NCBI GenBank assembly: GCA_002694685.1
Contig: NZMW01000017.1
Span: forward strand, 62,001-126,000
Length of the DNA stretch: 64,000 nt
Origin: Balneola sp.
Lineage (GTDB): Bacteria; Bacteroidota; Rhodothermia; Balneolales; Balneolaceae
Direction of reading: 5' to 3'
Shown: piece after piece, positions 10,496 through 61,399 of the stretch
Numbering within the stretch: position 1 is the first letter of the stretch
Layout of the letters: each line of letters opens with the position of its first letter
Translations under genes and position numbers: made by a program
Notes under the pieces: generated by a model
The model's input: only the letters and a program-made list of their open reading frames with translations
Database searches by the model: none
Told to the model about the DNA's origin: nothing

Positions 10496-10519
10496 GAGAT
10501 AATGTGTGAAAGTGTTTCT

Positions 10520-10555
10520 GTGTTTACGTGTACTCTAACGTTAACACGTAAACAC
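10520..10555. repeat. Perfect 12-bp inverted repeat between permease and ATPase genes
   Basis: GTGTTTACGTGT and its exact complement ACACGTAAACAC flank a 12-nt loop. Similar palindromes with GTGTTTA cores occur at 15903-15933 and 24996-25062, each just after a permease gene on the minus strand. There is no T-tract, so it is an mRNA processing or attenuation hairpin, or a repeat, more than a classical terminator. Confidence 0.6.
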
Positions 10556-10578
10556 CTTCAAAATGTTAGTACGTAAAA

Positions 10579-15846: not shown

Positions 15847-15883
15847 TGTTCGCTTTTAAACACCGGGTGTGCGCTTGTGGACA
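15847..15883. promoter_or_regulatory. Paired enhancer-like sites upstream of the 805-aa permease
   Basis: TGTTCGCTTTTAAACA (15847-15862) and TGTGCGCTTGTGGACA (15868-15883) are separated by CCGGG, with 21 bp between centres. The first site is 69 nt from the promoter element, as in the other members of the set. Confidence 0.65.
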
Positions 15884-25799: not shown

Positions 25800-25884
25800 G
25801 AACGCGGATGACACTGATTCTGTGGATTATCACGGTTTTATAATATTTCTGCGGTCATCTGCTAAATCAGTGTCATCAGCGTTC
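25800..25884. repeat. Palindromic intergenic element, 20-nt arms
   Basis: GAACGCGGATGACACTGATT (25800-25819) pairs with 25865-25884, with a single mismatch. It lies in the gap between the adaptor and ATPase genes. A diverged relative with the same GAACRCRGRTRAC start is at 53316-53410. Both are hairpin elements without an ORF. Confidence 0.7.
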
Positions 25885-27383: not shown

Positions 27384-27818
27384 AGCGCAAAGTGTTTTGC
27401 GCTTAGCGTTTTTTAGGCGACTAAAATTATGGTATAGAATGGCAAAATTTAGATTTCAAGACTTAGAGATATGGCAGATGGCTATTGATATAGCAGAGGA
27501 GTTGTTTGAAATAGCTGATGAACTTGAGCAAATGAAGCTATTTAGGTTTGCAGATCAACTAAGAGGCTCCGGGCTGAGTATGTCGAATAATATTGCAGAA
27601 GGTTCTGGTTCTGGCTTTCCTAAAGTATTTAAGCGTTACCTCGATCATGCCCGAAGTTCGACATTTGAAAATGCGAATGTAATCGTGGTTTTATATAGAA
27701 GGGGTATAATCTCAACCGAGAAACACGAAAATTTGCTTGATAAACTCGACCACCTAAGTCGAAAAATCACCAATTTTAAGAAAACTTTATAAGAGCTAAG
27801 CGCAAAACGCTCTGCGCT
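27384..27818. mobile_element. Small element: four-helix-bundle gene within terminal inverted repeats (copy 1)
   Basis: A 24-nt sequence at 27384-27407 (starting AGCGCAAAGTGTTTTGCGCT) recurs inverted at 27795-27818 with two mismatches, and each arm is itself a small hairpin. The only gene inside is the four-helix-bundle ORF. The element lies between the adaptor operon's control region and the response regulator gene. No target-site duplication is obvious. Confidence 0.55.
27439..27792 (+). CDS. Four-helix-bundle protein, S23/IVS-Avd-like family (copy 1)
   Basis: The 117-residue protein starts with MAKFRFQDLEIWQMAIDIAE; the conserved F..L.+W..A..+ opening and NNIAEGSG are hallmarks of the family once called 23S rRNA intervening-sequence (S23) proteins, related in fold to the Avd protein of diversity-generating retroelements. 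I start at 27439, because the upstream ATG at 27397 lies in the inverted repeat. The function is unknown; nucleic-acid binding is plausible from its relatives. Paralogues are at 39016 and 44333. Confidence 0.85.
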   Translation: MAKFRFQDLEIWQMAIDIAEELFEIADELEQMKLFRFADQLRGSGLSMSNNIAEGSGSGFPKVFKRYLDHARSSTFENANVIVVLYRRGIISTEKHENLLDKLDHLSRKITNFKKTL

Positions 27819-39000: not shown

Positions 39001-39430
39001 TATGGAATTCAGAATTCACGACACAGAACTCTGAATAGCTTTATAGTAACCATCAAGTAAGCGGCTTACTTCCTCAATAATGTTATTTAAATGATCTGTG
39101 TTTCCATAATTTAAATCCTTAGCAAGGATAATATAGTACCTGCATTCCTCTAAACTTCCATGTGAAATATTTAGGAACCGCAAAGTATCCCTGGTTCCGC
39201 GCTTTTTAAACCCTTCAGCAATATTGGCGGGTATAGAAACAGCTGCTCTTCTAAATTGAGAGTTCAATCCATAGAGTTCATGTTTCGGAAAATTCTTAGT
39301 GTATTTATAGGTCTCTAATACAAATTGATGTGCTTTTTGCCATACAATCAATTCTTTAAATGTTTTTGCTGGTTTTCTCATTGTTTCAAGTTTATTCTGA
39401 TTTCAGAATTCTGACTACTGAATTCTTTTA
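39001..39430. mobile_element. Small element: four-helix-bundle gene within terminal inverted repeats (copy 2)
   Basis: The ends 39001-39039 and 39391-39430 are imperfect inverted repeats about 38 nt long (shared TATTCxGAxTTC and TGAATTC blocks, roughly two thirds identical). Each arm is rich in GAATTC/CAGAATTCTG palindromes. The ORF occupies nearly all the interior and runs into the left arm. It sits between paaF and paaZ. Confidence 0.5.
39016..39381 (-). CDS. Four-helix-bundle protein, S23/IVS-Avd-like family (copy 2)
   Basis: The 121-residue protein starts MRKPAKTFKELIVWQKAHQF and contains the family motifs LNSQFRRAAVSIPANIAEG and the Y..L..A+DL pattern. It is inserted in the paa gene cluster and has no evident role in phenylacetate degradation. 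Its stop codon lies inside the inverted repeat. It is a paralogue of 27439 and 44333, but more diverged in the first helix. Confidence 0.85.
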   Translation of the reverse strand: MRKPAKTFKELIVWQKAHQFVLETYKYTKNFPKHELYGLNSQFRRAAVSIPANIAEGFKKRGTRDTLRFLNISHGSLEECRYYIILAKDLNYGNTDHLNNIIEEVSRLLDGYYKAIQSSVS

Positions 39431-39476
39431 CAGTAAGAGCCATAAAACCAGAAATCCTTACAGAATTTTTAATTAC

Positions 39477-42989: not shown

Positions 42990-43006
42990 AGAGAACCATT
43001 TTTTGA

Positions 43007-43087
43007 ACCGCAAAGAGCGCTAAGGCTCCGCAAAGTTCGCAGAGCAATTCTTAGCGAGCTCTGCGAAAACTCTGCGCTCTCTGCGGT
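43007..43087. repeat. Palindromic element between paaJ and paaY
   Basis: Nested inverted repeats: the outer ACCGCAAAGAGCGC (43007-43020) pairs with 43074-43087 with one mismatch, and an inner TTCGCAGAGC pairs perfectly with GCTCTGCGAA. It fills the whole gap. It resembles dispersed CGCAAAG/CTTTGCG-type repeats and carries no ORF. Confidence 0.7.
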
Positions 43088-43093
43088 AGATAA

Positions 43094-44299
43094 TTATGTT
43101 TTTTCGAGGATTACAGCCATTCCTTGTCCAACTCCAACACAAAGCATACAAAGCGCATATTTGTGTGATTCTTTCTCGTGAAGTTCAACAGTGGCTGTCT
43201 GTAACAATCGCTGACCGGTCATTCCAAGTGGATGTCCCAATGCAATAGCTCCGCCATTTGGGTTGAGTCGGGGATCATTATCGTCCATTTCCAGCATTCG
43301 GGTTACACCGAGCGACTGTCCGGCAAAGGCCTCATTTAACTCAATTACATCCATGTCTTCCAATTTCATGCCTGCTCTTTTTAAAACTTTTTGAGCTGCT
43401 TCCACCGGACCTAATCCCATAATTCTCGGTTCAATTCCAGAAACAGCATGAGCCACGATTCGTGCTTTTGGCTTTAGACTGAAGTCTTTGACGGCTTGAC
43501 CGGATGCGACCAATAAAGCTCCGGCACCATCATTTAAGCCCGATGCATTTCCGGCTGTTACGGAACCGTCTTTTTTGAATGCGGGTCGAAGTTTTCCTAA
43601 AACTTCAGCAGTAGTATCCGGGCGCATGAATTCGTCGTGCTCAAATAGTATCGGGTCTTGTTTTCTTTGTGGAATTTCAACAGGTACAATTTCTTTAGCG
43701 AGTCTTCCGGAATCCCGTGCAGCACCTGCTTTCTGTTGACTCCAAGCTGCAAACTTATCCTGATCTTCCCTGCTGATTTTATGCATCTCGACAACATTTT
43801 CAGCGGTAGTGCCCATTCCGTCGGTACCATACATTTCATCCATTTTTGGGTTGATGAATCGCCAGCCAAAAGTAGAATCGTGCATTTCCGTCGTTCCGGA
43901 GTAGGGTGAAGAGCCTTTACCTAAGACCATCGGTCCGCGTGTCATATGCTCCACTCCGCCCGTAATAAAAAGATCCCCTTCTCCAGCTTTGATGGCATGG
44001 TAGGCTTTCACAGTGGCACTCATTCCCGAGGCACATAATCGGTTCACCGTTTCACCCGGAACAGAAACAGGAATTCCAGCCAATAATGAAGCCATGCGTG
44101 CAACATTTCGGTTATCTTCCCCAGCCTGGTTTGCACATCCAAAAATCACATCCTCAATCGCTTCAAGGTCAATTTCCGGATTTCTTTTGATGAGTTCCTT
44201 AATGGGAATCGCAGCGAGATCATCGGCTCGAATGGAGGACAAAGCCCCTTTTAGCTTTCCAATGGGAGTTCTGATTCCGTCTATGATATATGCATCCAT
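43094..44299 (-). CDS. paaJ: PaaJ, 3-oxoadipyl-CoA/3-oxo-5,6-dehydrosuberyl-CoA thiolase
   Basis: The 401-residue thiolase has the acyl-accepting Cys89 in VNRLCASGMS, the His of GHPLG and the second Cys in CMLCVGVGQG. In this cluster it performs the thiolytic steps yielding acetyl-CoA and, finally, succinyl-CoA. Length is standard. Confidence 0.92.
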   Translation of the reverse strand: MDAYIIDGIRTPIGKLKGALSSIRADDLAAIPIKELIKRNPEIDLEAIEDVIFGCANQAGEDNRNVARMASLLAGIPVSVPGETVNRLCASGMSATVKAYHAIKAGEGDLFITGGVEHMTRGPMVLGKGSSPYSGTTEMHDSTFGWRFINPKMDEMYGTDGMGTTAENVVEMHKISREDQDKFAAWSQQKAGAARDSGRLAKEIVPVEIPQRKQDPILFEHDEFMRPDTTAEVLGKLRPAFKKDGSVTAGNASGLNDGAGALLVASGQAVKDFSLKPKARIVAHAVSGIEPRIMGLGPVEAAQKVLKRAGMKLEDMDVIELNEAFAGQSLGVTRMLEMDDNDPRLNPNGGAIALGHPLGMTGQRLLQTATVELHEKESHKYALCMLCVGVGQGMAVILEKT

Positions 44300-44300
44300 A

Positions 44301-44725
44301 GTATTTAGATAATAGTAATTAGTATTGAGTCTCTACTTTAATGAATTAGATAGAGAATAAATCATTTTTTGTATTTCAGTGATCATTTCTGATAGAGACG
44401 TATAATTTTCGTTACTCAAAAAACCTAAGTTTTTTGCTATCAATAATTGAGTTTCTAGTTCTGATCCAGATCCGTATGCAATATTCAGAAAGTGCTTGAA
44501 TTCTTTTTTGGATTTTCTACCAGCACCTTCGGCAATATTTGAGCTGATGGAAACTACGCTTCTTCTGATCTGTGAAGTAAGCCCAAATTTCTCCTCAGAA
44601 GGAAAGTTTTTAGTATGCGAATATACATCGGTAGCAAGATCTACTGCTTTTTTCCAAACTGATAATTCTTTGAATTGATGCATATCTAAAAATACTAAAT
44701 ACTAAAATCTCACTACTAAGTACTA
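44301..44725. mobile_element. Small element: four-helix-bundle gene within terminal inverted repeats (copy 3)
   Basis: 44307-44326 and 44691-44710 are inverted repeats with 17 of 20 positions matching (AATACTAAxTACTAxxATCT). The right arm reaches into the 3' end of paaI and supplies its stop codon. A 22-nt block (44698-44719) recurs exactly, inverted, at 48580-48601 in a hairpin that has no gene, linking the gene-bearing and the empty forms. Confidence 0.6.
44333..44683 (-). CDS. Four-helix-bundle protein, S23/IVS-Avd-like family (copy 3)
   Basis: The 116-residue protein starts MHQFKELSVWKKAVDLATDV and has the family motifs LTSQIRRSVVSISSNIAEGA and LNIAYGSGSELETQLLIAKN. It sits between paaI and paaJ inside inverted repeats. 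It resembles copy 2 more closely than copy 1. No link to phenylacetate metabolism is expected. Confidence 0.88.
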   Translation of the reverse strand: MHQFKELSVWKKAVDLATDVYSHTKNFPSEEKFGLTSQIRRSVVSISSNIAEGAGRKSKKEFKHFLNIAYGSGSELETQLLIAKNLGFLSNENYTSLSEMITEIQKMIYSLSNSLK

Positions 44726-45145: not shown

Positions 45146-45238
45146 AAGCTTTCAGTCTTCAGCTCTCAGTCTTGGTCCAAGCGGACGCTTAAACTATTCG
45201 AAAATAGAATTTAACTGAAAGCTGAAGTCTGATAGCTG
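45146..45238. repeat. Palindromic element between paaI and paaH
   Basis: The left arm (AGCTTTCAGTCTTCAGCT around 45148) and the right arm (45213-45238, ACTGAAAGCTGAAGTCTGAT) are about 85% complementary over 26 nt, with a ~40-nt loop. No ORF is inside. Confidence 0.6.
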
Positions 45239-48074: not shown

Positions 48075-48578
48075 CTAAATACATTTGAAGTGTTCAAAAG
48101 GTTGATCGCAATTATCACAAAAATATTGAGACTTACAAGCTGTTGACCCAAATTGACTCACCAATTTTGTATCAAAAGATTCACAAAAAGGGCAGGGAAT
48201 AACTTTAGTGCTGGATAGGCTTTTCAGGAAATCGCCTTCTTCTTCTGTTTTTTCGGGAGGAGCGATACCATAATCCTTAAGTTTGGCTTTGGCTTCTTCA
48301 GTCATCCAGTCAGTCGTCCAGGTTTCGGCGAAATCCAGTTTTACTTTGAAGTCTTGGACGCCTCGTTCTTCCAGTTTTTCATTCACAAGCTTCTCAATGG
48401 CATTCATTGCCGGACAGCCGGAGTAGGTGGGGGTGATTTTAACTAAAACCTGATCGCTATCAATCTCAACTTTGCGAGCAATTCCCATCTCCACAATATT
48501 CAACACCGGAATCTCTGGATCAGTAACTTCTTTAAGGTAGTCCCAAATTTGCTCTTCGGTATGTGTTTGAAGGATCAT
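48075..48578 (-). CDS. paaD: PaaD, phenylacetyl-CoA epoxidase assembly protein
   Basis: The 167 residues comprise an N-terminal MIP18/DUF59 domain (DPEIPVLNIVEMGIARKVEI, ITPTYSGCPAM) and a C-terminal zinc-ribbon-like part with CPFC and CDNC pairs. PaaD is needed for iron-sulfur or diiron maturation of the PaaABCE epoxidase. It follows paaC in the usual order ABCD. Confidence 0.93.
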   Translation of the reverse strand: MILQTHTEEQIWDYLKEVTDPEIPVLNIVEMGIARKVEIDSDQVLVKITPTYSGCPAMNAIEKLVNEKLEERGVQDFKVKLDFAETWTTDWMTEEAKAKLKDYGIAPPEKTEEEGDFLKSLSSTKVIPCPFCESFDTKLVSQFGSTACKSQYFCDNCDQPFEHFKCI

Positions 48579-48660
48579 ATTAGTAGTGAGATTTTAGTAT
48601 TGAGTAGTGAGTTTGAGACTTGGAAAACTCAGTACTCAAATCTCACTACTCAACACTAAT
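48579..48660. repeat. Palindromic element between paaC and paaD, related to copy 3 of the four-helix element
   Basis: The gap is one long imperfect hairpin (arms 48579-48620 and 48628-48660, repeating AGTAGTGAG and CTCACTACT). Its block 48580-48601 is an exact inverted copy of 44698-44719, the right arm of the four-helix-bundle element. It looks like the same element without the gene. Confidence 0.65.
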
Positions 48661-48663
48661 AAA

Positions 48664-49449
48664 TTATTTCCACTCTGCATCGGGTTGGGAGCGTCTTAGA
48701 AACTGCATTTGGGCTAATAGATGACCAAGGTGCTCGGTGTGAATTCCCTTGCGGCTTCCGGTCATCATAAATTGATCCCAATCGGGAATATCTAATGTTG
48801 CTTCGGTCAAGGTTTCATCAATTAACTTTTTTACGTCATCTTTGAATGTCGAAGAATCAATACCGATTCCTTCTTTAATCATTAACTCGTCAACTTCATC
48901 CATATAGAAGAGTTCTCCGAGATACATCCAAAGTTCGTCAAAGGATTCCTGAATACGCTCGTGACTTTCTTCGGTTCCGTCCCCAAGTCGTAAAACCCAT
49001 TCCCGGCTATGGCGAAGATGGTATTTGATCTCTTTCAGGTGCTTGTTGATCATACCGGCAAACTGCTCATCACTAGCTTCTTTCAATTTTTCATATTGGA
49101 AATAGCTGAAAGCGCTGAATAAAAACTGTCGCGCAATTGTAAACCCGAAATCACCTTTTGGCAATTCACAAAGCTGCAGGTTGGTAAAGTCCCGGTCGTC
49201 CCTAAAGTAGGCAAAATAATCTTCGTCATGACCTTCATCCTCAATTTCTGCAGCATATTCATACAGAGCAGTGGCATGACCAATTAAATCGAGAGAGATG
49301 TTCGCCAATGCTAAATCTTCCTCAAGTTGAGGCCCATGTCCGCACCACTCGGCGTTTCGCTGTCCCAGAATTAGTCGGTCGTCAGCCAGTCTTAATAAAT
49401 AAGTTAGAAAAGCTTCTTGTTTGGTCAATTTTTCTGTCGCTGTACTCAT
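48664..49449 (-). CDS. paaC: PaaC, structural subunit of phenylacetyl-CoA 1,2-epoxidase
   Basis: The 261-residue ferritin-like helical protein has the family opening LRLADDRLILGQRNAEWCGH and EEDLALANISLDLIGHA. PaaC is the non-catalytic, degenerate diiron partner of PaaA. The start overlaps paaB by 4 nt. Confidence 0.94.
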   Translation of the reverse strand: MSTATEKLTKQEAFLTYLLRLADDRLILGQRNAEWCGHGPQLEEDLALANISLDLIGHATALYEYAAEIEDEGHDEDYFAYFRDDRDFTNLQLCELPKGDFGFTIARQFLFSAFSYFQYEKLKEASDEQFAGMINKHLKEIKYHLRHSREWVLRLGDGTEESHERIQESFDELWMYLGELFYMDEVDELMIKEGIGIDSSTFKDDVKKLIDETLTEATLDIPDWDQFMMTGSRKGIHTEHLGHLLAQMQFLRRSQPDAEWK

Positions 49450-49751: not shown

Positions 49752-49775
49752 TAAAACTTGTTATGAAATTAAGTC

Positions 49776-49837
49776 GTCATGCTGAACTTGATTCAGCATC
49801 TGAATTAACCCAGATCCCGGATCAAGTCCGGGATGAC
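49776..49837. repeat. REP-like hairpins between paaA and paaB
   Basis: 49776-49804 is the exact complement of 30702-30730 (GCTGAACTTGATTCAGC core). 49816-49837 is a second hairpin, CCCGGATCAAGTCCGGG followed by ATGAC. Both end in the ATGAC/GTCAT motif typical of this repeat family. Confidence 0.7.
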
Positions 49838-49859
49838 AACGAGGAATTAATTACGTAAA

Positions 49860-52067: not shown

Positions 52068-52070
52068 TAA

Positions 52071-52143
52071 ATTTTAAATGCCTAAATGTTGAATGTTAAA
52101 TGGACATCAAGCCATTTAACATTTAAAATTCAAAATTTAACAT
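52071..52143. repeat. Palindromic element between hppD and hmgA
   Basis: GAATGTTAAATGG and CCATTTAACATTT form the inner stem over an 8-nt loop, extended by AT-rich partly complementary arms (AATTTTAAATG and TTAAAATTCAAAATT). It fills the gap and has no ORF. Confidence 0.55.
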
Positions 52144-52144
52144 T

Positions 52145-53302
52145 ATGTATTACCACGCATTAGGAAAGATTCCGCATAAACGTCATACCATATTTCGCCG
52201 GCCGGATGGTGAGCTGTACACCGAGGAGTTATTCGGAGCAGAAGGGTTTCATGGGAATAGCTCGCTGCTTTATCATCATCACATGCCAACGCGGGTGCTG
52301 AAAATTGAGGAAGGGGCAGAAATATCCGTTAAGAAAGCAGATGAGAAAACACTGCGGCACCGGTTGCTGAAAACGAAAGATATTCCGGCAGGGGGAGATC
52401 CCATCACCGGACGGAAAGTGCTGATGTTTAATAATGATATTCAGATTGGAACGGCTCGGCCGACCGGAAATATGGATTACTTCTATCGCAATGGAGAGCA
52501 TGATGAACTGCTCTTTATTCACGAAGGTGAAGGGCATGTTCAGTCCGTATTTGGCCGTCTCGATTTTGGCTATGGCGATTATATTTTTCTCCCAAGAGGC
52601 ACAACGTATCAAATGAATTTTGAGACGGATGAAAATCGGTTTTTGTTTGCTGAATCAACCGGGCCTATCGATTTCCCTAAGAGATACCTTTCTGAAATGG
52701 GACAGTTCATGGAGAACTCTCCGTTTTGTGAACGGGATTTCAGGTTGCCTTCTGAGCAACTTTTTCATCCTGAAGAAGGTGAATTTGAAGTACGAATTAA
52801 AAAAGATGGCCGGTTCCATCACTACACTTTTGATCATCATCCTTGCGATGTGGTTGGTTGGGATGGCTACTTGTATCCGTGGATTTTCAACATCAAAGAT
52901 TTTGAACCGATTACCGGCCGCATCCATCAGCCGCCTCCAGTTCACCAAACTTTCCGTGGGCATAATTATGTGGTATGCAGTTTCTGTCCACGCAAGTTTG
53001 ATTATCATCCCGATTCCATTCCGGCGCCCTATAACCACTCTAACGTCGATTCAGACGAGATGATCTATTATGTGGAAGGCGACTTCATGAGCCGAAAAGG
53101 AATTGGTTATGCAGATATCACCCTGCATCCCGGAGGCATTCCCCACGGACCGCAACCCGGAAAAGCAGAAGCAAGCATCGGAGCCGAAGAAACCGACGAA
53201 TATGCCGTGATGATCGATACCTTCCATCCGATGTATGTGACGGAAGAAGCCATGCGGTTAGATGATCCAAGCTACCCGTATTCCTGGCTAGAGGATAAGT
53301 AA
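52145..53302 (+). CDS. hmgA: Homogentisate 1,2-dioxygenase
   Basis: The 385-residue protein has the cupin-type family blocks GHVQSVFGRLDFGYGDYIFL and HQPPPVHQTFRGHNYVVCSF, the Fe-binding region near HPGGIPHGPQPG, and the opening MYYHALGKIPHKRHT. It opens the homogentisate ring to maleylacetoacetate. The next enzymes (maleylacetoacetate isomerase, fumarylacetoacetase) are absent from the window. Confidence 0.94.
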   Translation: MYYHALGKIPHKRHTIFRRPDGELYTEELFGAEGFHGNSSLLYHHHMPTRVLKIEEGAEISVKKADEKTLRHRLLKTKDIPAGGDPITGRKVLMFNNDIQIGTARPTGNMDYFYRNGEHDELLFIHEGEGHVQSVFGRLDFGYGDYIFLPRGTTYQMNFETDENRFLFAESTGPIDFPKRYLSEMGQFMENSPFCERDFRLPSEQLFHPEEGEFEVRIKKDGRFHHYTFDHHPCDVVGWDGYLYPWIFNIKDFEPITGRIHQPPPVHQTFRGHNYVVCSFCPRKFDYHPDSIPAPYNHSNVDSDEMIYYVEGDFMSRKGIGYADITLHPGGIPHGPQPGKAEASIGAEETDEYAVMIDTFHPMYVTEEAMRLDDPSYPYSWLEDK

Positions 53303-53315
53303 TGATAATGATATG

Positions 53316-53410
53316 GAACGCGGGTGACACAGATTGAAGGATAATCACAGATATATTAAAAATGGATAAAAGATCAGTGACTATCAGTATAATCAGCGTT
53401 ATCTGTGTTC
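53316..53410. repeat. Diverged palindromic element after hmgA
   Basis: GAACGCGGGTGACACAGATT (53316) and the complement of 53391-53410 match at about 14 of 20 positions, with the differences mostly transitions (G/A), which preserve G-U pairing in RNA. It is related to the hairpin at 25800-25884. Confidence 0.5.
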
Positions 53411-53495
53411 TAATCCGTTTTCTTTATTCAGTATTGCACCTCTTTTGATTCCTCTTCATATTCCTTCCATCCAATTCTAATCTCAAAATTTCGTC

Positions 53496-58517: not shown

Positions 58518-60554
58518 ATGTACAAGCAAGCTTGCCATATTATTTTATACTTGCTGATTGCCTTTATAGCAGGTGATTTTTCAAAACAGTCTGGAGAGAA
58601 GGCTTTACTGGAAAAAGGCTATCAGCTTGAAGCTGCGGGTGAATTTGAAGAAGCTCTGGAGCTTTGGGCCTCAGCTGTTGAAGAGTTAGAGCATCCAAGC
58701 CTTGCCATTGGCCGGGAATATATTCGTTTGACTACCGATCATAACCTTCGTGATTATTATGAGACTGCTTCTTCTATGTACACTTGGGGCCTAAGTGGAA
58801 GGGATGTTGAGCCCAACCAGGAAGCATTGGCTAAAGAAATCCAGTTGTTGGAGCCTTTACTTTCAAGCCTGGCGTTTGATAATGAGCAGGTGAATCGTTG
58901 GAAGGATATGTTAGAGAAAGGCGATTCAGATTTATACGATCAAATACGGGTCTTTTGGGAACAGCTTGACCCCACTCCGGGAACCCGCTATAACGAACGG
59001 CTGATAGAACATTGGGAACGCATAGCCTACGCCCGAGAGCATTTTGACCGTAAAGACGACCCGCCTTATGCTACTGACGACCGGGGGATTGTGTATGTGC
59101 AATATGGAGAACCGGATAAGAAAGATTCCGGGATTCTTAATATCACACGAGCAGATATTTTTACGAACTGCCCGTCGGGCTGTAATCCTGAAGCAATGGC
59201 TAATGTACTGCCTGCCATTGATCCCGCTCCCTACTACGAAGTCTGGGTGTACGAGAAGCCCAATCCTGCGATGCAATTTAACTTAGTGAAAATATTTGGC
59301 GATAAAGCTATTGGTGGGTTCAGTGAAGTTGAAAAAGTAGAAGATTTTATCCCAAATGAAGCATTTAGTCAAAATGATGGACGGTATGCCTTTAAGTCTT
59401 TAACCGGTAGAAAAACAACTCCGGGAGAGAAAGTTACTCCAGGCATGGTAATGCAATACAATTATTACTTAAAGTTATCCTCGTACGATTTTTTCTTCGC
59501 AAGTAGATTTGACCAATTAAACTTCGAATGGAATAGGGCAGATCCAGGTGACCCCAGGTTGGGAAAACATCAAGGGCCTATGCAGGAGGAACGATCTAGA
59601 ACAATCACGATTAATAACCTGAAGGAAGCCCCGCCGGAACAATCTACCTATGCAAAGGCTTTTCCTTCCATCGAGCTTTCAGCCCACCACTACCGCATTC
59701 TAGATGAACAGAACCGGCCAGCTGCGTTTACCTTTTTGGAAAGTCAGCCCGGTGCGCCTTTCTTAGATGATCTAATTGCCAATCAGGATATTCTATTTCC
59801 CGGGGATTCAGTGCCGAATCAAACCGTACTCAACGAGTATAAACTCAACCATGGGGTGAAGGTAAATGGGGAAGACGGGGAACTGCTGAGTCAGTCCCGG
59901 GAGCAAGCGAATTTGGTACTAGATCTAGAAGGGAAAACCCCAAGCAGCAGTGTGTTTAAAGTTCCGTTTCTGGAAGAGAACCAAAAGCTAACCTTGTTTG
60001 CGGAGCTGCACAACGAAAACTCAGGGACCAAACCTGCCCTAGAGGATTCGCCGTTTCCGGCATCACTGCGCGGAATAGGAAAACTGGAATCAGAGCTTCC
60101 CAAACCGCTAAACTCTGACCCCGAAAAACTTCAAATGTCCGATTTAATTCTGGGCTATCAAATGAACACGGACGCCACAAATGTACTTTTTCCATTTGTA
60201 GTAGCCAATAACAAAAAGATTCCTCAGGGTGAAGAATTAGCCATTCATTTCCAGATTTACCACCTGGAAGAAGGTGACGAAGGATTGTCCAGTTTTACCA
60301 TCGATTATGAAATTACTCAAGATCGCCGCATGCAGTGGCTATTGGGGAGAGACCGTGAAGTGAGTCTATCGTTCACCCAGCAAGTGAGAGGCTCCCGATA
60401 CGTACAAAACCTTTCCATTCTTACAAGAGAATTGGAAACCGGTAGCTACACATTTTCTTTTAAAGTAACCGATGAAATCAGCGGAAAGAAAATCCAGAAG
60501 GAAATTGAATTGGAGATTGTAGCTTCGAATAAGCAGGATATCTCTTCACTTTAA
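58518..60554 (+). CDS. GWxTD domain protein with TPR-like N-terminus
   Basis: I start at ATG 58518; a GTG at 58512 is also open. The ~678-residue protein has a signal peptide (ACHIILYLLIAFIAGDF), a TPR-like segment (KALLEKGYQLEAAGEFEEALELW), the GWxTD domain (about 155-300, with RGIVYVQYGEPD and YYEVWVYEKPNP) and beta-sandwich-like C-terminal half. GWxTD proteins are exported and poorly understood. No neighbouring partner is evident. Confidence 0.85.
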   Translation: MYKQACHIILYLLIAFIAGDFSKQSGEKALLEKGYQLEAAGEFEEALELWASAVEELEHPSLAIGREYIRLTTDHNLRDYYETASSMYTWGLSGRDVEPNQEALAKEIQLLEPLLSSLAFDNEQVNRWKDMLEKGDSDLYDQIRVFWEQLDPTPGTRYNERLIEHWERIAYAREHFDRKDDPPYATDDRGIVYVQYGEPDKKDSGILNITRADIFTNCPSGCNPEAMANVLPAIDPAPYYEVWVYEKPNPAMQFNLVKIFGDKAIGGFSEVEKVEDFIPNEAFSQNDGRYAFKSLTGRKTTPGEKVTPGMVMQYNYYLKLSSYDFFFASRFDQLNFEWNRADPGDPRLGKHQGPMQEERSRTITINNLKEAPPEQSTYAKAFPSIELSAHHYRILDEQNRPAAFTFLESQPGAPFLDDLIANQDILFPGDSVPNQTVLNEYKLNHGVKVNGEDGELLSQSREQANLVLDLEGKTPSSSVFKVPFLEENQKLTLFAELHNENSGTKPALEDSPFPASLRGIGKLESELPKPLNSDPEKLQMSDLILGYQMNTDATNVLFPFVVANNKKIPQGEELAIHFQIYHLEEGDEGLSSFTIDYEITQDRRMQWLLGRDREVSLSFTQQVRGSRYVQNLSILTRELETGSYTFSFKVTDEISGKKIQKEIELEIVASNKQDISSL

Positions 60555-60558
60555 TTCT

Positions 60559-60710
60559 CGTCATTGCGAGGAGATTAGGAAAATAAATCAGGTTTGAAAA
60601 GTATAGCGACGAAGCAATCTCATTGAATAGGTATCCGAAGTAGTACGTAAAGATCGCCGCGTCGTAACAAATCAAGCTTTGAAAGAATTAGGGTGCTCCT
60701 CGCGATGACA
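60559..60710. repeat. 152-bp palindrome-ended repeat, copy A
   Basis: It starts CGTCATTGCGAGGAG and ends CTCCTCGCGATGACA, which are inverted relative to each other (one or two mismatches). Internal blocks AGTATAGCGACGAAGCAATCTC and GATCGCCGCGTCGT are common to all three copies. It lies between the GWxTD gene and the GIY-YIG gene. Confidence 0.85.
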
Positions 60711-60718
60711 GGCTTATA

Positions 60719-61045
60719 CTACATTTTGTTAGGGTCTTTAAAACCACCGGGTATAATATCATTATAAAGGTCTTTCCACGTAGGGTTCATAGAATTAACT
60801 AAATCAATTTTCTTCTGCCTGGAACCCGATTTGATTTGTTTCTCTCTTTCAATTGCGTAAATAGGATCGCCAGGCCCTTCAAAATATATTAATTGATCTA
60901 GATTATATCGTTTGGTGAAACCTTTGACTTGCCTGTTTTTATGTTGCCAGACTCGGTTTACCAGATCACTAGTGACACCAGTATATAAAACGGTATGATT
61001 CTTATTCGTGAGAATGTAAACGTAGAGGTTTTTATCTCGTGCCAT
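60719..61045 (-). CDS. Small GIY-YIG nuclease domain protein
   Basis: The 108-residue protein consists of a GIY-YIG domain alone: YVYILTNKNHTVLYTGVTSD contains both motif strands, followed by the Arg/His helix (LVNRVWQHKN) and the Glu region (YAIEREKQIKSGSRQKK). It resembles the UPF0213/YhbQ-type nucleases, whose cellular role is unclear. It is enclosed by copies A and B of a 152-bp repeat, with copy C behind. Confidence 0.88.
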   Translation of the reverse strand: MARDKNLYVYILTNKNHTVLYTGVTSDLVNRVWQHKNRQVKGFTKRYNLDQLIYFEGPGDPIYAIEREKQIKSGSRQKKIDLVNSMNPTWKDLYNDIIPGGFKDPNKM

Positions 61046-61068
61046 ATTAAATTATAGTAAATCAGAAA

Positions 61069-61220
61069 CGTCATTGCGAGGAGACTGGGAAAATAAATTA
61101 GGTTTGGTAAGTATAGCGACGAAGCAATCTCCTTGAATAAGTATTTGAAGTAGTGCATGAAGATCGCCGCGTCGTTATAGATCAAGCTCTGCAATAATTA
61201 GGGTGCTCCTCGCGATGACG
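61069..61220. repeat. 152-bp palindrome-ended repeat, copy B
   Basis: Direct-orientation copy of 60559-60710, ending CTCCTCGCGATGACG. By eye it is closest to copy C in the right half (both CTCTGCAATAATTAGGGTGC). Confidence 0.85.
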
Positions 61221-61246
61221 TGTTTTATTTTATACCCCAATTTATT

Positions 61247-61399
61247 CGTCATTGCGAGGAGTGTGGGAAGTATAAATTAGGTTTGAAAAGTATAGCGACG
61301 AAGCAATCTCCCTGAATAGGTATCAGAGGTAGTGCGAAAAGATCGCCGCGTCGTTAAAAATCGAGCTCTGCAATAATTAGGGTGCTCCTCGCGATGACG
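61247..61399. repeat. 153-bp palindrome-ended repeat, copy C
   Basis: Third direct copy, 26 nt after copy B and ending 11 nt before the metallopeptidase stop codon. The ends form the same CGTCATxGCGAGGAG palindrome. Confidence 0.85.

Follow-up and report, generated by a model that had tools for sequence, protein, structure and literature searches.

Three S23/IVP four-helix-bundle genes in the window (the 64,000-nt stretch of Balneola sp. DNA analysed here) each form the core of an element of about 0.45 kb, which consists of an arm, the gene, and the inverted arm and, in some copies, includes a promoter-like motif in front. The arms are arrays of heptamers, and in Xanthomonadaceae the heptamers dispersed through a genome follow both the presence of the gene and the heptamer of the gene's own arms. 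A gene placed between mirrored heptamers, together with the same heptamers scattered in the genomes that carry it, suggests one overlooked kind of mobile DNA. We consider it probable that this is a REP/RAYT-like system, in which a pentameric protein that is not a transposase partners heptamer hairpins, and that the intervening sequences (IVSs) of rRNA are copies which landed in rRNA; there is a substantial chance that the class deserves a name of its own. The features of the window are listed below, p denoting the one-copy probability of the inverted repeat (130-nt flanks, other-site null) and L numbers denoting individual loci.

10507..10560, no strand: ORF-less hairpin, GTGTTTA style; best match L046, from another genome
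15863..15975, no strand: ORF-less hairpin, GTGTTTA style; similarity to copies 0.55, exceeding the 95% point of random windows but not their maximum of 0.58
27384..27415, no strand: left arm of element 1, GCG anchor every 7 nt (GCGCAAA GTGTTTT GCGCTTA GCG); p 0.004
27439..27792, + strand: gene of element 1, PF05635 S23/IVP four-helix bundle; E 1.2e-24
27788..27818, no strand: right arm of element 1, the left-arm sequence inverted
39005..39037, no strand: 3' arm of element 2, overlapping the ORF end; p 0.078 alone; orthologue L077 has score 29
39016..39381, - strand: gene of element 2 (L004), PF05635; E 3.7e-38
39394..39426, no strand: 5' arm of element 2, AGRAN-like anchors with 2-nt spacers, period 7
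39433..39462, - strand: promoter-like motif of element 2, TGTAAGGA-N14-GCTCTTAC, beyond the arm and within the block that moves as a unit
44299..44329, no strand: 3' arm of element 3 (L001), abutting the thiolase start codon; p 0.019
44333..44683, - strand: gene of element 3, PF05635; E 6e-43; flanked by thioesterase and thiolase genes on the same strand
44693..44725, no strand: 5' arm of element 3, TAGTANT heptamers; contains the stop codon of the upstream ORF
45147..45237, no strand: ORF-less hairpin AGCTTTCAGTCTTCAGC; similarity to copies 0.46, not above the 0.49 of random windows
48573..48681, no strand: ORF-less heptamer hairpin; element 3 is its best match among 111 copies
52070..52144, no strand: ORF-less TTAAATG hairpin; L009 of the same genome is its best match among 111 copies

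All three window ORFs match the profile PF05635 (23S_rRNA_IVP), which is represented by 13 genes in the genome of origin (3.95 Mb, hereafter the own genome) and has matches in 29 of 37 related genomes. Besides PF05635, the element proteins show a weak bAvd similarity alone, which lies below the curated cut-off and concerns two of the three, and no Y1/HUH or transposase domain was detected in them. This similarity, and the homologous fold of the accessory protein Avd (excerpts of PMC10053308), could point to a relic or module of a diversity-generating retroelement with an Avd-like accessory. Such elements differ, however, by their reverse transcriptase, for which the own genome contains no match (PF00078, RVT_1; control search positive in 3 of 14 genomes), and the retroelement reading, rejected on this ground, retains hardly any probability. 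A search of Rfam gave no match within the window, and the neighbours of the elements are protein genes, not rRNA. Element 3 is located at the exact junction of the thioesterase and thiolase genes, with one arm abutting the start codon (44299) and the other holding the thioesterase stop codon (44716-44718). Five of the ORF-less hairpins in the window were compared with gene-bearing copies: the matches of 48573 with element 3 and of 52070 with L009 exceed all of 200 random windows, with copies of the own genome ranking best of the 111, and the match of 10507 with L046 also exceeds this limit, while the hairpin at 15863 is borderline and that at 45147 not above chance.

The original prediction described three paralogous S23 genes inside imperfect inverted repeats, with a common layout and arm sequences that differ between copies, and both statements were borne out by the PF05635 matches, by the inverted flanks at each of the three genes, and by the copy-specific inverted flanks that differ between copies and can be read at all 13 copies of the own genome. 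For the statistical evaluation the 5' flank was locally aligned with the reverse complement of the 3' flank and the score compared with that of mispaired flanks. The set of 111 copies from the genus, family, and order was obtained from 124 domain matches in 121 loci by merging identical copies and skipping three with short flanks; the loci comprised those returned automatically and 80 regions hand-picked among the matches listed, strong ones being favoured. In this set, the mean inverted score was 22.0 versus 13.2 for mispaired flanks and 13.8 for the direct-orientation control; with 130-nt flanks and an other-site null, it was 18.6 versus 10.8, and 70 of the 111 copies exceeded the 95% point and 47 the 99% point. 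As a set, the inverted arms are thus far beyond chance. Taken singly, 7 of the 13 own copies have p<0.05, and a significant inverted repeat is absent in some, such as L005 and L012 (other-site null). Given this fraction and the p of the 39016 copy, whose arms are individually weak, alignment alone cannot prove every copy.

The arms had been taken for plain palindromes; simple palindromic terminal inverted repeats were rejected, since the arms are in fact arrays with a period of 7 nt. This periodicity had been overlooked in the first reading, as had the motif outside the 39016 arm and the ORF-less hairpins of the same kind in the window. Flank autocorrelation at lag 7 amounts to 0.346/0.338 versus 0.268 in genes and 0.249 in far flanks, with further peaks at lags 14 and 21 where genes and far flanks are flat, and 123 of 222 flanks, versus 7 of 110 far controls, have 7 or 14 as their best period. 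Period 8 was found in 17/222 flanks of the own group and in 24/182 flanks of 96 loci from other bacteria; L193 and L233 are among the few copies with flanks of period 8 or 9. Read by eye, an arm is composed of an anchor and variable bases, e.g. GAC-NNNN, CAG-NNNN, GGG-TTNC, TAG-TANT, or GCG-NNNN. Within a copy, the 4-mer cosine between the left arm and the reverse complement of the right arm is 0.65, compared to 0.17 in direct orientation and 0.11 for other sites, and 77 of the 111 copies have a periodic arm on both sides. The 7-periodic runs are 29-34 nt long in 138 of 295 cases and 35-37 nt in 7; the mode is alike in all three sets (own group, 96 loci from other bacteria, Xanthomonadaceae). 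With an anchor every 7 nt, a run of 29-34 nt holds five anchors. Five anchors per arm is only the most frequent number: a good many runs fall short of it (22-28 nt), longer arrays also exist, and Rehm 2015 reported a preference for four repeat units (excerpts of PMC4692102).

The arms evolve in concert within copies: for pairs at orthologous sites, the two arms of one copy match each other better than the arms of the orthologue in 136 of 185 pairs, with the reverse in 37 and ties in 12. Such concerted change would also be expected if the arrays were formed by polymerase slippage and mirrored by hairpin-templated repair (quasipalindrome correction), the gene being a passenger, and slippage is an idea quoted in the excerpted text of PMC4692102. 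The peaked run length argues against this explanation, as does the fact that a dispersed heptamer is predicted by the presence of the gene and its specific heptamer (see below), and we regard it as very improbable.

A promoter-like motif, TGTAAGGA-N14-GCTCTWAC, occurs at 21 sites in the own genome (G000; L122-L142) and at none in reversed orientation, and 5 of the 13 own S23 genes are located directly downstream of it. It also precedes genes which we take to be recA, recF, recQ, comEC, and comM; domain searches downstream of the motif confirmed ChlI for the comM-like gene and an integrase SAM-like domain for an integrase. In relaxed form, the motif is present at most 250 nt upstream in 32 of the 111 copies, and in none of them in the mirrored position. 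From its sequence context, the motif is a candidate promoter of a competence/recombination regulon of this genus.

Several comparisons show that gene and arms moved together to new sites. The paralogues L077 and L078 of genome G006 occupy two sites and their homology is confined to 467-469 nt, beginning immediately ahead of the motif and stopping where the right arm ends; near-identical limits were found in the cross-genome pairs L024/L101, L004/L078, and L026/L078. Proteins at least 60% identical at different sites share their heptamer (60 pairs, some of them perhaps undetected orthologues; mean cosine 0.68). Below 50% protein identity, the heptamer is not shared at different sites, and over all identities the Spearman correlation of protein and arm similarity is 0.03, the subsampled value being reached by 25 of 300 permutations; the idea that each protein keeps a single heptamer specificity even at low identity was therefore rejected. 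The L078/L101 site is empty in L049, L066, L074, L054, L092, and L009. At the site of the 27384 element, G000 and G006 carry the element, and the ORF is missing from G001, G005, G007, and G008; by eye, G001 and G007 have an ORF-less heptamer hairpin there. The flanks of empty sites are too diverged for a target duplication to show, and no transposition event was seen. Some sites are old: clustering by flank homology groups up to 12 copies, paralogous or neighbouring sites being mixed in the largest clusters. Strict conservation of positions, which the original prediction had named as counter-evidence, therefore applies in part: some sites are occupied throughout the genus and into related genera, whereas elsewhere there are occupied and empty alleles and paralogues at new sites. 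Purifying selection acts on the S23/IVP protein: among 36 orthologous pairs with dS <2, the median dN/dS is 0.06, and no pair reaches 1.

The main rival is an element acting at the RNA level as in the rRNA IVSs, in which a stem formed by the arms in the transcript is cleaved by RNase III and the protein has RNA as its target, any spread proceeding via RNA. In Coxiella, an IVS of the same layout is cleaved by RNase III (excerpts of PMC4990558), 50 of the 104 copies with both neighbours called are co-directional with both of them, and in 16 of 27 classifiable copies the motif is located 5' of the arm, which would then be transcribed. In the other 11, however, the motif lies between arm and ORF, and a fixed position relative to the arm was accordingly rejected; moreover, 28 of the 104 copies are antisense to both neighbours, which argues against RNA as the sole mode, and the missing PF00078 match in the own genome also counts against spread via RNA. 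Strict insertion into RNA or operons was rejected because antisense and divergent sites are common, and the RNA-stem reading as a whole appears unlikely to us. A mobile family of one-gene elements, possibly with an RNA-based life, had been proposed at the outset; the elements are most likely mobile, and with antisense insertion this common a life solely as RNA is not required.

The layout recurs in very different bacteria. A set of 96 named loci comprised 80 loci from many phyla, which are the best 80 of 580 relatives, so that phyla are not sampled at random, together with 16 of 25 plasmid matches, mainly from cyanobacteria. Against mispaired flanks, for which 91 of the 96 loci had both flanks long enough, 68/96 exceeded the 95% point and 31/96 the 99% point, and the best period was 7 or 14 in 126 of 182 flanks. 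In Xanthomonadaceae, all 60 copies fetched (of 68 listed places, covering 53 of 54 genomes) had raw inverted-repeat alignment scores of 17-51 with a median of 28. The objection that other copies might have no inverted repeats was thus pursued through the 111-copy, 96-locus, and Xanthomonadaceae sets and did not hold. No match to the element was found in a phage collection, and carriage by phages was rejected. In L255, L261, and L264, the gene is located inside CRISPR-Cas operons of cyanobacterial plasmids, in a cas6/cas4 or cas10/cmr3-type interval.

The relation between gene and dispersed heptamers was surveyed in 119 Xanthomonadaceae genomes, 54 with the gene and 65 without, the gene-less set being partly inferred from absence among the listed matches; exact tandem heptamer pairs per genome were counted. 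GGGAWTC gave at least 10 pairs in 35 of the 54 genomes with the gene versus 8 of the 65 without a detected gene, and also in 12 of 27 genomes whose genes have other arms. Among genomes with the gene, the median number of dispersed pairs of a heptamer, when the gene's arms carry it versus when they carry another, was 154 versus 3 for GGGAWTC, 28 versus 0 for GTGAWTC, and 151 versus 0 for GGGACYC, and G070, which has two genes with two arm heptamers, contains 403 and 195 dispersed pairs of the two. The prediction, set beforehand, that genomes with GAGNAAC arms hold dispersed GAGDAAC pairs was met in 8/8 versus 8/111 genomes (Fisher 1.6e-8, a value which, like those of the Mann-Whitney tests, ignores phylogeny, related species sharing genes and repeats); at least 10 such pairs occur in three genomes only, all among the eight predicted, five of which have 1-4. 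GTGAWTC arms are found at three places in the protein tree, in which the heptamer type switches repeatedly.

As a further explanation, the protein could be a domesticated regulator with the dispersed heptamers as its binding sites near genes, forming a host regulatory network without present mobility. Strong purifying selection, long-lived sites, and the location of heptamers near ORFs in Beggiatoaceae and Xanthomonas (excerpts of PMC4679880 and PMC4692102) are in accord with this. The joint movement of gene and arms and the repeated switches of heptamer type are not, and no regulatory role could be identified by Rehm 2015 (excerpts of PMC4692102), so that we consider such a network rather improbable.

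The element probably works like a REP/RAYT system while sharing its protein and layout with the rRNA IVSs, and it lacks one defining feature of each family tested: location in rRNA (IVS), Y1 (RAYT), and reverse transcriptase (diversity-generating retroelements). The 23S rRNA IVSs of Coxiella and Leptospira resemble it by the PF05635 protein, the ORF within terminal inverted repeats, which the copies show as a set and not each singly, and the length of about 0.43 kb; known IVSs, however, reside inside 23S rRNA, whereas the window elements lie between protein genes. According to the excerpted text of PMC4990558, a 28-bp terminal stem encloses the S23 ORF of the Coxiella IVS, and this ORF is preceded by three tandem GACAGAT heptamers, which are not tied to dispersed repeats there; the same excerpts describe S23 proteins as being without known function and quote older ideas of IVSs as transposition remnants or mobile elements. 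REPs and REPINs with their RAYTs are similar in that a gene is flanked by hairpins and the same hairpins are dispersed in the genome without the gene (excerpts of PMC3733652), and both features were found here. They differ in that RAYT is a Y1 transposase and the S23 protein a four-helix bundle without HUH/Y1, and in that the S23 repeats are 7-nt arrays and the gene copies of one genome may carry different heptamers.

For the heptamers themselves, GGGAATC and GGGGA(C/T)T have been described in Xanthomonas and Nostoc (Rehm 2015; excerpts of PMC4692102), and GGGAATC-type arms flank the Xanthomonas copies L174-L176. The same excerpts give about 185 GGGAATC arrays per Xanthomonas genome and frequent inverted pairs (70 and 75 cases); the heptamers were treated as G-quadruplex repeats, their role being left open, and the terms "four helix", "S23", and "23S rRNA" are absent from the main text. 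TAACTGA of Beggiatoaceae (PMC4679880) is the reverse complement of the CAGTTAT-type arms of L051, L089, and L121, and the excerpted text of that paper mentions neither S23 nor four helix. Among the open-access papers searched, a scope that leaves most subscription papers and all preprints outside, none was found to connect S23 genes with dispersed heptamers.

In the proposed REP/RAYT-like mechanism, the S23/IVP protein would partner its own heptamer in trans, much as RAYT partners REP; the copy that holds the gene would serve as master element, with the hairpins dispersed elsewhere as its non-autonomous copies. Relatives of the protein crystallise as homopentameric rings (Xcc0516 is a homopentamer toroid according to excerpts of PMC4990558; the PDB entries 2gsc and 2rld have five chains each, the relation of 2gsc being clear by sequence), for which reason we propose that each pentamer ring recognises a single arm of hairpin DNA or RNA, with one anchor for each subunit. 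The S23-bearing IVSs might then have arisen when such copies inserted into rRNA helices. We know of no catalysis or nuclease activity of the S23/IVP protein, and copying would therefore depend on host enzymes of replication and recombination; several copies of this genus have the motif in common with recA-, recF-, recQ-, comM-, and comEC-like genes. The broadest form of the proposal, in which S23/IVP pentamers would act as master proteins for an unrecognised and very common class of mobile DNA, with one ring per five-anchor arm and transposase-free dispersal of heptamer hairpins, is put forward tentatively, with a slightly less than even chance of being right.

The STRR of cyanobacteria are another group of heptameric repeats. 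If the broad proposal is true, it would explain much of the bacterial heptamer excess (Xanthomonas GGGAATC, Beggiatoa TAACTGA, cyanobacterial STRR), and the rRNA IVSs, for which the link offers an origin, would be one landing site of S23 elements. Role and spread of bacterial heptameric repeats have been stated to be open (excerpts of PMC4692102 and PMC4679880); the S23-heptamer link joins this question to that of S23 function, with the gene's own arm as a testable ligand, and suggests a second, Y1-free way in which a gene and dispersed hairpins could become partners as in REP/RAYT.

As far as the sequences indicate, one putative promoter motif is common to several families of small bounded genes. 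Further one-gene loci under the motif are L126, L132, L133, L137, and L139 (by domain matches two Y1_Tnp, two GIY-YIG, and one PDDEXK_3/GxxExxY), each with inverted repeats of its own in a style different from that of the S23 arms. In the window, a GIY-YIG gene (60719-61045, - strand) is placed between two repeats of about 150 bp, GTCATTGCGAGGAG...GAAGCAATCTC...CTCCTCGCGATGAC, at 60552-61244, and a third copy of this repeat begins near 61247. The CGTC start of the GTCATTGCGAGGAG repeat recalls, as a resemblance only, the CGTC-tagged REPs, which are said to have no dedicated transposase (excerpts of PMC3733652). Intergenic hairpins that lack an ORF and resemble in style the repeats flanking GxxExxY and GIY-YIG genes are located at 25800-25884, 53300-53426, 42994-43101, and 49761-49858.
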